Assembly: GCA_025463615.1 (NCBI GenBank)
Contig: JAODAU010000162.1
Span: 1-13,012 of the forward strand
From: Microbacteriaceae bacterium
GTDB taxonomy: Bacteria > Actinomycetota > Actinomycetes > Actinomycetales > Microbacteriaceae
Reading direction: 5' to 3'
Length of the DNA: 13,012 nucleotides
The translations under genes were made by a program, and so were the position numbers. Under the pieces are notes generated by a model. It did no database searches. It had not been told where the DNA came from and saw only the letters and a program-made list of their open reading frames with translations. Numbering within the stretch: the stretch's first letter is position 1; each line of letters opens with the position of its first letter. This document shows, one piece after another, positions 5,448 to 13,012 of this stretch.

Positions 5448-5828
5448 GAATGGGCCGGCAAGACGGTCGCGTCGGCGCCTCGGCTCTCGGGTCGGGTGCC
5501 GCCGAGGAACGTCCGGGCTCCGCAGGGCAGGACGGTGGGTAACGCCCACCCGGGGTAACCCGCGAGCAAGTGCAACAGAGAGTAGACCGCCAGGGACCTC
5601 GGTCCCCGGTAAGGCTGAAACGGTGGTGTAAGAGACCACCAGCGGTCCGCGTGATCGGACCGGCTAGGTAAACCTCGTCCGGAGCAAGGTCAGACAGGAA
5701 GCTATGGGGCTGCCCGTCCCGCTGTCGGGTAGACCGCTGGAGGGCTGCGGCAACGTAGTCCCGAGATAGATGGCCGTCGATGTCACGAAAGTGACGGGAC
5801 AGAACCCGGCGTAACAGCCGGCCCATTC
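5448..5828 (+). ncRNA. rnpB: RNase P RNA (type A), M1-like ribozyme
   Basis: RNase P RNA is the catalytic subunit that removes 5' leaders from tRNA precursors. The conserved core motifs are present in order: GAGGAACGTCCGGGCTCC (5504-5521), ACAGAGAGTAGACC (5575-5588), AAGGCTGAAACGGTG with a GTAAGAGACCACC stem side after it, GGAGCAAGGTCAGACAGGAAGC, AGATAGATGGCCGTC, and near the 3' end ACAGAACCCGGCGTAACAG. The ends pair perfectly as a 12-bp P1 helix, 5448-5459 (GAATGGGCCGGC) with 5817-5828. A GTCAC-GAAA-GTGAC hairpin (5782-5795) fits P18 with its GNRA loop, and GGGAC-CTCG-GTCCC is another stable hairpin. Length, about 381 nt, suits the bacterial type A class. The exact mature 3' end may extend a few bases. 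Orientation is certain from the motifs. Confidence 0.97.
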
Positions 5829-5837
5829 ACCATCCCG

Positions 5838-6434
5838 TCAGTGGCTTATGTCGACGCCGGCTTCGATGAGGTGGCGGCGAAGCCCCTCGACACCGTCGAA
5901 CAGGTGGGTGCGCATCGAGAGGCTGTCTGCGCCGGTGAGCTTCGACGCGGAGTCGTCGGTGAAGAAGACCTCCTCCGCCTCCACGCCGAGCGCGCGAAGC
6001 ACGTACTCGAAGGCGCGAATGTCGGGCTTCACGTAGCCGATCGCCGCCGAATTGAAGATCGCGTCGAACCGGTCGCCGATGCCCAGCGAATCGATCTCCG
6101 CGGGGATGGTGTCGGTCCCGTTTGTGAGCACGGCCGTAGTCAGCCCCGCGGCGCGCAGCTCGTCGGAGAGGTGCAGGAGGGCGCCATCGACGACCGCCGG
6201 TTGGACGCCCCACTCTGCGGCGGCCGCCGGGTTTGCGGCCAGTTCGCCGATCCGTCGCACCCACTCCATGCGGCTGATTCGACCGCTCGTCACGTCTTCG
6301 ATCAGGGGCTTCGCGTAGGCGATGCCATCGAAAGTTCCTGTGGCTATTCCGTGCCTGCGCTCGATATCTGCGACGTAGCTCGCGTCGAAGTGTCGGATGA
6401 CTCCGTCAAGGTCGAAGAGGACTACGCGGATCAT
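5838..6434 (-). CDS. HAD-superfamily hydrolase (phosphatase-like)
   Basis: The 198-residue product is a haloacid dehalogenase-type hydrolase, most likely a phosphatase of a small metabolite. Motif I is D8-L-D10-G-V (VVLFDLDGV), motif II T104 in VLTNGT, motif III K136 in YVKPD, and motif IV the D160-D161 pair in FFTDDS. An alpha-helical cap of the subfamily I type lies between motifs I and II (residues ~15-85). The substrate is not evident. The frame extends six codons further upstream to GTG 6452, but the ATG at 6434 puts motif I at the usual distance from the N-terminus and has a GAGAAGA stretch a few bases ahead, so I prefer it. The gene converges with rnpB, only 9 nt separating the ends, and its start is back-to-back with the DUF222/HNH gene. 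Confidence 0.9.
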   Translation of the reverse strand: MIRVVLFDLDGVIRHFDASYVADIERRHGIATGTFDGIAYAKPLIEDVTSGRISRMEWVRRIGELAANPAAAAEWGVQPAVVDGALLHLSDELRAAGLTTAVLTNGTDTIPAEIDSLGIGDRFDAIFNSAAIGYVKPDIRAFEYVLRALGVEAEEVFFTDDSASKLTGADSLSMRTHLFDGVEGLRRHLIEAGVDISH

Positions 6435-6478
6435 CGGACGATCTTCTCGCACGATCGGCGCGAGGGGGAGGAATGTCG

Positions 6479-6505
6479 GTGGTCGGTTGCATGATGATTA
6501 CGTGA
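6479..6505 (+). promoter_or_regulatory. Possible 8-codon leader peptide coupled to the DUF222/HNH start
   Basis: A strong Shine-Dalgarno, GGGGGAGGA (6464-6472), is too far (about 30 nt) from GTG 6502 to serve it directly. It is well placed for GTG 6479, which opens a tiny frame MVGCMMIT ending in TGA 6503-6505, overlapping the main start as GTGA. Re-initiation at the overlap would couple the two. An ATG at 6473 in the same frame abuts the SD and is less likely. Direct use of TTG 6487 in the main frame is the alternative. Confidence 0.35.
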
Positions 6506-7746
6506 CCACAACGACTCTTCTTGCCGAACTCGCGGCTGTTGCCGCTGAGCAGCGCGCGCTCGACGCGCGGCGTGTGGTGTTGGCGGGCGAGTTGGCGGCG
6601 TTGTCCGACCGGTCGCTGGGTGAGGCTGGGATTGCGCGGCGGGCGGGGTTCCGTAGTGCGGCGTTCATGCTCGCAGACTTGTGGCAGGTGAGCGTGGGTG
6701 AGGCGCGTCGGTTCTGCGAGGTTGGACTCGCGACGCGGGCGCGGCAGGCGTTGGATGGGTCGCCGTTGCCGGCCCGGTTTCAGGTGGTTGCGGACGGGAT
6801 CGCGTCGTGCACGCTCGGGATTGCGGCGGCGGGAGTGATCGTGCGGGAGCTGGAGGCCGCGTCTGTGCGGTGCTCGGCGGAGGCTCGGCGGGAGGCGGAA
6901 GAGCTCTTGGTGTCCCGGGCGGCGGAGTTCACGGTTGCGGAGCTGCAGATCGTGGCCCGGCACGCACATGAGGTGTTGGATCAGGACGGGTCCGAGCCCC
7001 GGGATGTGCGACAGAAGGCACGGCGGTCGCTGCGGTTCATCCCCGACTCGGACGGGATGATCCGTTTGCAGTGGGTGATGGCACCGGAGACCGCCGGGCT
7101 CGTGCGGGCGAACCTGAACGCAATTGTCGGTGCTGAGTTGCGCGCGGCACGGGAGACCGATGTGCCCGACGATCGCACGCTGGAGCAGCGGCGGGCGGAT
7201 GCGGCAGAGCAGGTGTTCCGGCATGCGGCGTCGTGCACCAAGACCGGTGGTGACCGCCCGACGGTGTCGATGGTCGTGCGGCTGAGCCTGCAGGATCTCC
7301 GTTGCGGGACCGGTACCGCGTTGATCGACGGTGTCGCCGAACCGATCTCGATCGCTACCGCCCGCAAACTCGCCGCCGACGCGGAACTGATCCCAATGGT
7401 GTTGGGCGGTCCGGGTGAGGTGTTGGATGTGGGGCGTGGGCAACGGTTGTTCACGAAGGCGCAACGATTGGCCCTGATCGAACGCGACGACGGATGCGCG
7501 TTCACCGGGTGCACGAGCCCGCCCGCGTTCGCCGAGGCACACCACATCCAGTGGTGGTCACACGGCGGACAAACGGATCTGTCGAACGGGGTGATGCTGT
7601 GCGCGTTCCACCACCACCGGGTGCACGACGACGGGTGGGAGATCGACGTTCGCGAGGGTGTGCCGTACCTCATCCCGCCGCCCTGGGTCGACCCGACACG
7701 ACGAGCACGGCGTGGCGGACGCGTGGAACTGAAGGCAGCAGCATGA
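6502..7746 (+). CDS. DUF222 / HNH endonuclease-signature protein (13E12 repeat family)
   Basis: The 414-residue protein has the DUF222 helical domain in its N-terminal two thirds (from LLAELAAVAAEQRALDARR through the RRSLRFIPDSDGM region) and a C-terminal HNH nuclease motif. Putative zinc cysteines are C332, C337 (CAFTGC) and C367; the HNH residues are H347-H348 (AEAHHIQWWSHGG), N362 (DLSNGV) and H370-H372 (CAFHHHRVH). Members occur in many diverged copies in actinobacteria, and the REP13E12 copies in M. tuberculosis serve as integration sites for phage phiRv1; the cellular role is not established. Codon choice stands out: TTG, GTG, CGG and GCG are frequent, whereas adjacent genes prefer CTC, GTC and CGC, suggesting a different history. 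The start is uncertain: GTG 6502 is chosen because the DUF222-like helix begins right after it; TTG 6487 is possible. Confidence 0.88.
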   Translation: MTTTTLLAELAAVAAEQRALDARRVVLAGELAALSDRSLGEAGIARRAGFRSAAFMLADLWQVSVGEARRFCEVGLATRARQALDGSPLPARFQVVADGIASCTLGIAAAGVIVRELEAASVRCSAEARREAEELLVSRAAEFTVAELQIVARHAHEVLDQDGSEPRDVRQKARRSLRFIPDSDGMIRLQWVMAPETAGLVRANLNAIVGAELRAARETDVPDDRTLEQRRADAAEQVFRHAASCTKTGGDRPTVSMVVRLSLQDLRCGTGTALIDGVAEPISIATARKLAADAELIPMVLGGPGEVLDVGRGQRLFTKAQRLALIERDDGCAFTGCTSPPAFAEAHHIQWWSHGGQTDLSNGVMLCAFHHHRVHDDGWEIDVREGVPYLIPPPWVDPTRRARRGGRVELKAAA

Positions 7747-10949: not shown

Positions 10950-11696
10950 CTACCGCCCGGCGGCGAGCGAGGCTGCGCCCATGATCCCGGCGTTGTTGCG
11001 GAGGGTCGCCGGCACCATGGGGGTATCGATCTTCACGAGCGGCAGGAAGTCCTGGTACTGCTTCGAGACGCCGCCGCCCACGATGATGAGGTCCGGGTGG
11101 AAGTACTTCTCCAACGCGGAGTAGTAGACCTGCAGGCGCGCGGCCCAGTCCTCCCAGGAGAGGTCCTCGCGCTCCTTGGCCGAATACGACGCCTTCGTCT
11201 CGTAGTCGACGCCCTCGAGCTCGAGGTGGCCGAGCTCCGCGTTCGGGATGAGCACGCCGTTGTAGATGAGCGCGCTGCCGATTCCCGTGCCGAGGGTGGT
11301 CAGGATGACGAGGCCCTTCTGGCCCTCCGCGGCGCCGAAGATCGTCTCGGCGTAGCCGGCGGCATCCGCGTCGTTCACGAACTTGATGTCGCGGCCGAGC
11401 TTCTTCTCGAACAGCTTCTCGGCCTCGAGCCCGATCCACGTCTTCGAGACGTTGGCCGCCGAGAGGGTCTTGCCCTTGATCACGACGGCCGGGAAGCAGA
11501 CCCCGACCGGTTCCTTCTTGCCGGCGTCAAGCTGCTCGATGATCTTCGCGACGGTGTCGACGATGTCCTTCGGCTCGCCGCCCTCGGGCGTGGGCAGCTT
11601 GATGCGGTCGCTGAGCATCTTGCCGGTCGACACATCGACGATGGCCCCCTTGATGCCGGTCCCGCCGATATCGATACCAACCGCTTTGTCAGCCAT
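10950..11696 (-). CDS. ppgK: Polyphosphate glucokinase
   Basis: This 248-residue ROK-family kinase phosphorylates glucose using polyphosphate (and usually ATP) as donor, a hallmark enzyme of actinobacteria, feeding glycolysis. The phosphate-binding loop is G7-IDIGGTGIKGA near the N-terminus and LTTLGTGIGSALI at ~132-144. The catalytic Asp is D109 in FVNDADAAG; glucose-side motifs are CFPAVV, ANVSKTWIG and the Glu/His stretch AELGHLELEG (153-162). As in PpgK proteins, the cysteine-rich zinc motif of other ROK kinases is missing, and the ending VPATLRNNAGIMGAASLA is typical. The ATG at 11696 is preceded by a purine-rich GAGAGAA. The gene starts 40 bp after the end of the map frame and is followed directly by kdpD. 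Coupling of glucose phosphorylation to a KdpDE pair is unusual and treated as a finding. Confidence 0.95.
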   Translation of the reverse strand: MADKAVGIDIGGTGIKGAIVDVSTGKMLSDRIKLPTPEGGEPKDIVDTVAKIIEQLDAGKKEPVGVCFPAVVIKGKTLSAANVSKTWIGLEAEKLFEKKLGRDIKFVNDADAAGYAETIFGAAEGQKGLVILTTLGTGIGSALIYNGVLIPNAELGHLELEGVDYETKASYSAKEREDLSWEDWAARLQVYYSALEKYFHPDLIIVGGGVSKQYQDFLPLVKIDTPMVPATLRNNAGIMGAASLAAGR

Positions 11697-11736: not shown

Positions 11737-12603
11737 TCAGGGGAGTGTGAGCACTTCGGCGCCGCGTTCGGTCACCACGAGGGTGTGCTCGAACTGGGCG
11801 CTGGGACTGCGGTCGCGGGTGACGACGGTCCAGCCGTCCGCCCACATCTCCCAGTCGGGTGAGCCGAGCGTGAGCATGGGCTAGATGGTGAAGACCATGC
11901 CCGGTTCGATCGCCGTGGAGTGCGCGGGCGCCGCGTCGTAATGCGGGATCACGAGCCCGGAGTGGAACGCCGTGCCGACCCCGTGCCCGGTGAAGTCGCG
12001 CACCACGCCGTAGCCGAAACGCTTTGCGTACGACTCGATCGCGCGGCCGATCACGTTCACGGCCCGCCCCGGCGCGACGGCACGGATGCCCCGCTCAAGC
12101 GACTCGCGCGTGCGCTCGACGAGCGCGGTCACCTCGGGGCCCGCCTCGCCCACCACGAAGGTGCGGTTGCTGTCCCCGTGCACGCCGCCCTTGTACGCGG
12201 TGATGTCGATGTTGACGATGTCGCCGTCCTCGAGCACCGTGTCGTCCGGGATGCCGTGGCAGATCACCTCGTTCACCGAGCTGCAGAGCGACTTGGGGAA
12301 ACCGCGGTAGCCGAGGGTGGAGGGATACGCGTCGTGCGCGACCATGTACTCGTGCCCGATGCGGTCGAGCTCGTCGGTCGTGATGCCCGCGCGCACGTGC
12401 GAACCGACGAGCGTGATCGCGTCCGCGGCGATGCGGCCCGACTCGCGGATGCGCTCGACCGCGTCCGGGGCGTAGACGTCCGACCCGGTAAACTCGCGCG
12501 GCCCCGCGTGGCCGACGTACTCGGGGCGCGGGATGTGGCGGGGTACCGTGCGCTGTGGAGAGAGCCGCCCCGGCGTGAGATGGCCGTGCGAATCCCTGGG
12601 CAT
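11737..12603 (-). pseudogene. map: Methionine aminopeptidase type I interrupted by an in-frame TAG
   Basis: Type I MetAP removes the initiator Met from nascent proteins. The frame from ATG 12603 has the actinobacterial N-terminal extension ([12 protein letters not shown]) and the pita-bread fold with ligands D133 (NIDITAY), D144 (HGDSNRTF), H207 ([10 protein letters not shown]) and catalytic H116 (ICHGIPDD). At codon 241 (11883-11881) it meets TAG, exactly where the metal-binding Glu of GMVFTIEPM should be. Without a frameshift the frame continues for 47 further family-like residues, [13 protein letters not shown]... to the last ligand E272 in [10 protein letters not shown], and ends TLP-TGA at 11737. 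A single G-to-T change (GAG to TAG) explains it. The 240-residue product would lack two metal ligands and should be inactive. It could be a true pseudogene with a second MetAP elsewhere, or a sequencing error. Codon usage and all other motifs look undecayed, so the change is recent or artefactual. Confidence 0.9.
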
Positions 12604-12635: not shown

Positions 12636-12806
12636 ATGACCGACTGGTACTACAACATCCGCACCGGAGAGGTCGAGGAGGGACGCCAGTCGCTGGCATC
12701 CGACCTCGACGGCCCGTTCGCCACCCGCGAGGAGGCCGCGCGCGCGCCCGAGATCATCGCCGAGCGCTCGCGCAAGTGGGCCGAGGACGAGGCGAAGAAC
12801 AACTAG
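12636..12806 (+). CDS. Small SPOR-like hypothetical protein, 56 aa
   Basis: The product starts [19 protein letters not shown] and continues with [20 protein letters not shown] before a charged end, WAEDEAKNN. The pattern 'WYYN-TG-VE-G...[12 protein letters not shown]' matches the short proteins often annotated as SPOR-domain-containing in Micrococcales, where the [12 protein letters not shown] motif resembles a SPOR-domain repeat; peptidoglycan binding is not shown for these, and there is no signal peptide, so the protein is probably cytoplasmic. The Shine-Dalgarno GAAGGAG (12624-12630) is 5 nt from the ATG, an excellent start. The gene is divergent from map with only 32 bp between starts and converges on the next - strand gene with 6 bp between stops. 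I infer no function. Confidence 0.85.
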
Positions 12807-12812
12807 CCCGCA

Positions 12813-13012
12813 CTACTCGTACTCGTGTTCCGGGGCCGGGTAGGCGCCGGACGTGACGTCCTCGATGTAGCGGCCGACGGCCTGGATGGCCTGCGCCGCG
12901 ATGACGCTCGATTCACGGATGAGATCGACGGATGCCGCGGGGTAGACGTCTCCGCCGGTGTAGTTCGCCGGCGCCTTCTTTCCCACGTACTCGGGGCGTG
13001 CGATCGACTGCG
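12813..13012 (-). CDS. C-terminus of a PanB-like protein carrying a MetAP-like segment (partial)
   Basis: The last 66 residues of a - strand gene run off the window edge. The end, RYIEDVTSGAYPAPEHEYE, closely resembles the C-terminus of ketopantoate hydroxymethyltransferase PanB (E. coli ends [20 protein letters not shown]), the first enzyme of pantothenate synthesis. The 42 residues before it, RPEYVGKKAPANYTGGDVYP and on through IRESSVIAAQAIQAVG, align without gaps to residues 26-67 of the neighbouring map product with about 24 identities. It may be PanB with an added segment, a recombinant of the two genes, or the start of a second MetAP that has lost its body. The frame stays open to the edge and stops at TAG 12813-12815. 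Identity cannot be settled from this fragment. Confidence 0.5.
   Translation of the reverse strand, partial: QSIARPEYVGKKAPANYTGGDVYPAASVDLIRESSVIAAQAIQAVGRYIEDVTSGAYPAPEHEYE

Follow-up and report, generated by a model that had tools for sequence, protein, structure and literature searches.

A single internal TAG interrupts a mapB-type (MetAP1c-like) type I methionine aminopeptidase (MetAP) gene in the stretch of DNA analyzed here (hereafter the window; 13,012 nt at its full length), and the stop is, on balance, probably a sequence or assembly error. The window appears to be a short contig from a Microbacteriaceae bacterium, probably of short-read metagenome origin, in which one base, either wrong or very new, would have turned codon 241 of the 288-codon map frame into a stop (minus strand, 11883–11881, read directly from the sequence). 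With error as the most likely cause, the organism would probably encode a normal enzyme at this locus. Should the base be real, translation would yield a 240-residue fragment without two metal ligands, presumably inactive, judging from the ligands known for the family, and another MetAP would take over N-terminal methionine removal. The frame runs on the minus strand from an ATG at 12603 to a TGA at 11739–11737 (Table 1).

Table 1. Features in and around the interrupted map gene, in window coordinates.
Feature	Position	Strand	Remarks
mapB-type (MetAP1c-like) type I methionine aminopeptidase frame	11737..12603	-	288 codons and terminator; one internal stop
TAG, codon 241	11881..11883	-	in relatives, ligand Glu of the TIEP motif
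N-terminal part, up to the stop	11881..12603	-	240 residues; 224 bits, TIGR00500 positions 3–199
C-terminal part, past the stop	11737..11880	-	47 residues and TGA; conserved
ROK-family kinase gene (ppgK-like)	10950..11696	-	open; downstream of map; TAG-ended
Small protein gene (SPOR-like)	12636..12806	+	56 aa; divergent from map; TAG-ended
C-terminal tail of panB-like gene	12813..12870	-	TAG-ended; relatives have the whole gene here
DNA for a mapB N-terminus, distinct from that of the window's map	12871..13012	-	continues in frame into the panB tail; chimeric end likely

The earlier note on this DNA had placed a stop at 11881..11883 within GMVFTI-TAG-PMLTLG, and its coordinates, strand and reading are all correct: GMVFTI precedes the codon, PMLTLG follows it, and a frameshift is absent. 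Alignment to relatives likewise bears out the note's description of conserved flanks and an intact 47-residue C-terminal part that retains a second ligand glutamate at residue 272. That the stop replaces a glutamate also holds: of 8000 scored relatives, the top 120 are listed, and every one of them has E opposite the TAG. Codon 241 corresponds to E204 in Escherichia coli, which agrees with the aligned ranges for chain 1mat, and residues 241 and 272 are ligand glutamate positions, the former being the fourth metal ligand by order. Standard translation stops after residue 240, giving a product without either residue; the metal ligands are thus not all held in one polypeptide. Of the five metal ligands known for the MetAP family, the 240-residue N-terminal part would be without two.

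The identity of the gene is clear despite the stop. With X at the interrupted codon, the map frame scores 288.1 bits to TIGR00500 (type I methionyl aminopeptidase), and the part before the stop alone scores 224.1 bits; both exceed the curated cut-off of 171.35 bits, which is a whole-protein score. The 47-residue part after the stop scores 49 bits. An intact protein of 288 aa from an ENA-sourced cluster, P0002, is 95% identical to the window map product, and its best solved-structure matches by sequence are the MetAP entries 3iu7, 3pka, and 1y1n (for 3iu7, 387 bits, with P0002 residues 6–286 aligned to 7–286 of the 288 residues of 3iu7_A). These three entries are Mycobacterium tuberculosis MetAP1c (MapB). 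Both the N-terminal extension and the closest sequence match to MetAP1c that mark this subtype were found, by way of P0002.

The glutamate codon is uniform among relatives at the DNA level as well. All 80 related genome loci compared (the best 80 of 270; 16 of them records titled MAG) carry it at position 241, as GAG in 54 and GAA in 26. The earlier note had held that sister genomes with GAG or GAA would make the stop a sequencing error; each of these 80 related loci has one of these codons. An error is favored, though not proved. The top 50 loci bear names of Microbacteriaceae or its genera, and the lower-ranked L062, L067, L069, and L079 bear genus names from a neighboring family, so that the window most likely comes from the Microbacteriaceae. 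The closest locus in genome_contigs is 80% identical to the window, the window contig itself being absent from the matches; viral_contigs yielded 21 DNA relatives, the best of them 60% identical, and gave no match to one 34-base pattern. The plasmid collection contained no record spanning most of the window. Among 398 sampled genomes of the Microbacteriaceae, the family to which L001 belongs, 297 gave a mapB match (query P0002, E 1e-80). When a query carrying 32 residues upstream of the start was used, several mapB matches seemed to have internal stops; these were taken as upstream, because the repeat with P0002 found none among the 150 listed of the 297 matches. The sole internal stop in mapB among the 80 loci lies in a MAG, at codon 192 (L039, 6601), and that genome holds three further type I MetAPs over the cut-off. 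The TAG at codon 241 is, as far as seen, private to the window contig. Two side observations arose from these comparisons: one internal TAG was reported in a type I MetAP paralogue (G216:C121:47673-48422) in the genome of L008, a Cryobacterium MAG, and Lacisediminihabitans changchengi has two mapB loci (L021 and L023) that lie on separate scaffolds yet do not differ in score or codon counts when compared with the window.

The remainder of the gene bears no sign of age since the change. Identity to P0002 is 93.8% for residues 31–240 and 97.9% for the 47 residues past the stop, and median dN against the 80 loci is 0.20 before the stop and 0.17 after it; no relaxed selection past the stop is visible in this comparison. 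No second lesion or frameshift was found in the map gene. A decaying pseudogene would carry more lesions or relaxed constraint past the stop, and the map gene has neither; with no other decay, the base is therefore an error or a very recent change. Which kind of base change it is does not tell error from mutation. Nor does the location of the stop carry much weight. The earlier note had called its landing on a catalytic residue a striking coincidence, which is an overstatement: with codon 241 taken as Glu, 61 single-base routes lead to a stop in map, across 48 codons, and Glu codons account for 20 of those routes. The ligands Glu 241 and Glu 272 make up two of the 48, so that a nonsense codon would strike a ligand Glu about 4% of the time, or 10% of the time if it fell at a Glu. 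A stop at a catalytic residue is unremarkable for a feature picked post hoc.

The order panB, small SPOR-like gene, map, ppgK-like gene, KdpD-type kinase, and response regulator is common to the window and L001, a Frigoribacterium MAG. The ROK kinase and KdpD domains were found by domain search, and the 56-aa small protein returned no Pfam match. Elsewhere in the window, a bacterial RNase P class A RNA (5451–5829, plus strand; full model, 284 bits) lies between RNase H and HAD-family genes. A DUF222/HNH endonuclease gene (6397–7746, plus strand) has one weak relative among the 80 loci (L002, 34% identity) and is perhaps a mobile insertion.

The right end of the contig departs from this arrangement. 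L001 and similar relatives have a complete panB-like gene where the window has the tail only, and the DNA beyond it (12871–13012) is 86% identical in nucleotides to L050 over 142 bases, versus about 70% to the window's own map over 132 bases. A piece of 142 bases is close to the length of a single short read, as would be left by a chimeric read or graph join, and the contig end is likely chimeric. This suggests an assembly artefact in the window contig and the presence of a second Microbacteriaceae mapB in the sample. Both window ends fall inside genes, the left within a Ku-like gene. The chimeric join is more than 900 bases from codon 241, however, and by itself it is no proof that 11881–11883 is bad. 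The contig does not seem generally error-ridden, since no stop interrupts the other long frames, of which six match relatives nearly full-length (Nif3, zinc ribbon, RNase H, response regulator, kinase, and ppgK-like).

Whether a broken mapB would be tolerable bears on how a real stop should be judged. The earlier note had set the stop against the essentiality of MetAP in bacteria. PMC6562599 describes mapB as essential and mapA as dispensable in M. bovis BCG, with partial redundancy. The window's family looks less strict: a second type I MetAP is present in 30 of the 31 mapB-bearing relatives checked at the TIGR00500 curated cut-off. In one set of 20 such relatives, every genome carries between two and four type I MetAPs above the cut-off; in another, 10 of 11 have at least two, the exception being G212 (a 2.0 Mb MAG), with the mapB type only and no second MetAP over the cut-off. 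The note's suggestion that a second map gene carries the load accordingly fits what is usual in relatives, and this redundancy makes the premise that the window map must work a weak one. Genomes lacking mapB also occur: 101 of the 398 family genomes have no match at E 1e-80, an upper bound, as genome completeness is not given. When 20 listed of the 46 genomes without a mapB match to the extended query were tested, 19 had another MetAP over the cut-off, with a best score of 253 bits, versus at least 282 for the mapB type in mapB-bearing relatives; seven of the 19 hold exactly one MetAP over the cut-off. The twentieth (G060) has sub-cut-off MetAP pieces, yet gives a mapB match at 1.3e-83 with the P0002 query. 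By analogy with these relatives, a real loss of mapB would probably be tolerated in the window's organism.

That the stop is a true nonsense allele which arose very recently in mapB, carried by the strain or part of its population, with a mapA-like MetAP bearing the load and decay only starting, is therefore plausible, though in our judgment it falls short of probable. The at least two type I MetAPs in all 20 and in 10 of 11 relatives, the 101 family genomes without a match, the 19 of 20 listed genomes without a match to the extended query that keep another MetAP, and the independent internal stop of L039, in a genome with three other MetAPs, all argue for it; the essentiality of the mapB orthologue, with mapA dispensable, in the BCG work argues against it, as do the lack of internal stops in the 150 listed family matches, the absence of a second MetAP over the cut-off in G212, the possibility that the mapB absences are gaps in genomes of unstated completeness, and the freedom of the window map from any other lesion. 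A real recent nonsense mutation would give the same picture as an error. The earlier note had itself listed an assembly error among its options, and that option is the one we favor, inferred rather than proved, from an otherwise intact gene, the Glu of its relatives, and the chimeric-looking end. Error is preferred because the map gene has no other lesion and dN past the stop is not raised; because none of the 120 listed proteins or the 80 loci has anything but Glu at this position and no internal stop occurs in the 150 listed of 297 matches; because the chimeric-looking end is an artefact mark in the same contig, both ends of which lie inside genes; and because the sole other internal stop in mapB among the 80 loci sits in a MAG. 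Mixing of strains in the metagenome, giving a hybrid codon in the consensus, is barely credible: the contig end does point to a second related mapB in the sample, but the 80 relatives use GAG or GAA only at codon 241, a mixture of these cannot give TAG, and codon mixing was rejected on that ground.

The earlier note had also raised readthrough of the stop, which finds no support here. If the TAG were read through, by a suppressor tRNA or as a recoded UAG, enough full-length enzyme could be made, and the conservation of the part downstream of the stop would fit; little product might do, as a MapB variant of about 8% activity sufficed for growth of BCG with mapA present, according to PMC6562599. 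Against this, five further genes in the window end in TAG (the ppgK-like gene, RNase H, a permease, the small SPOR-like gene, and the panB tail), and these ends coincide, or nearly so, with those of the relatives' genes. No tRNA occurs in the 13,012-nt window, and codon 241 is a sense codon in 80 of 80 loci, just as no internal stop occurs in the 150 listed matches. The residues usually inserted when near-cognate tRNAs read through UAG are Gln, Tyr, Lys, or Trp, which would not replace a ligand Glu. Recoding is very unlikely because UAG serves as a terminator elsewhere in the window and none of the listed relatives shares the stop, and readthrough as a whole is very improbable. The least credible version is one in which the stop is real and fixed, UAG readthrough inserts a ligand-capable amino acid to yield a little full-length MapB, and a mapA-type enzyme does the bulk of the work; if true, it would be an example from nature in which suppression alone supplies a catalytic residue.

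With error as the preferred reading, the biological weight of the stop is small, and its main lesson is one of caution: where a conserved gene shows a single stop and lies on a short contig whose end looks chimeric, the reads should be inspected before stories of recoding are told. Set beside known systems, the window gene most resembles M. tuberculosis MapB/MetAP1c, its best structural match by sequence, with an N-terminal extension common to both; it differs in the stop at the fourth metal ligand. P0002 has the same length and start and is 98% identical past the stop position, but has Glu at residue 241 where the window map has TAG. The mapB of L039, a Leifsonia sp. 71-9 MAG, is similar in having a single internal TAG in an otherwise intact frame, although its stop falls at codon 192 (Tyr in P0002), which is not a ligand, and not at codon 241. 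Within the Microbacteriaceae the mapB-type MetAP seems dispensable, in contrast to its counterpart in M. bovis BCG, as far as the 101 of 398 genomes without a match, of unstated completeness, can be taken at face value.
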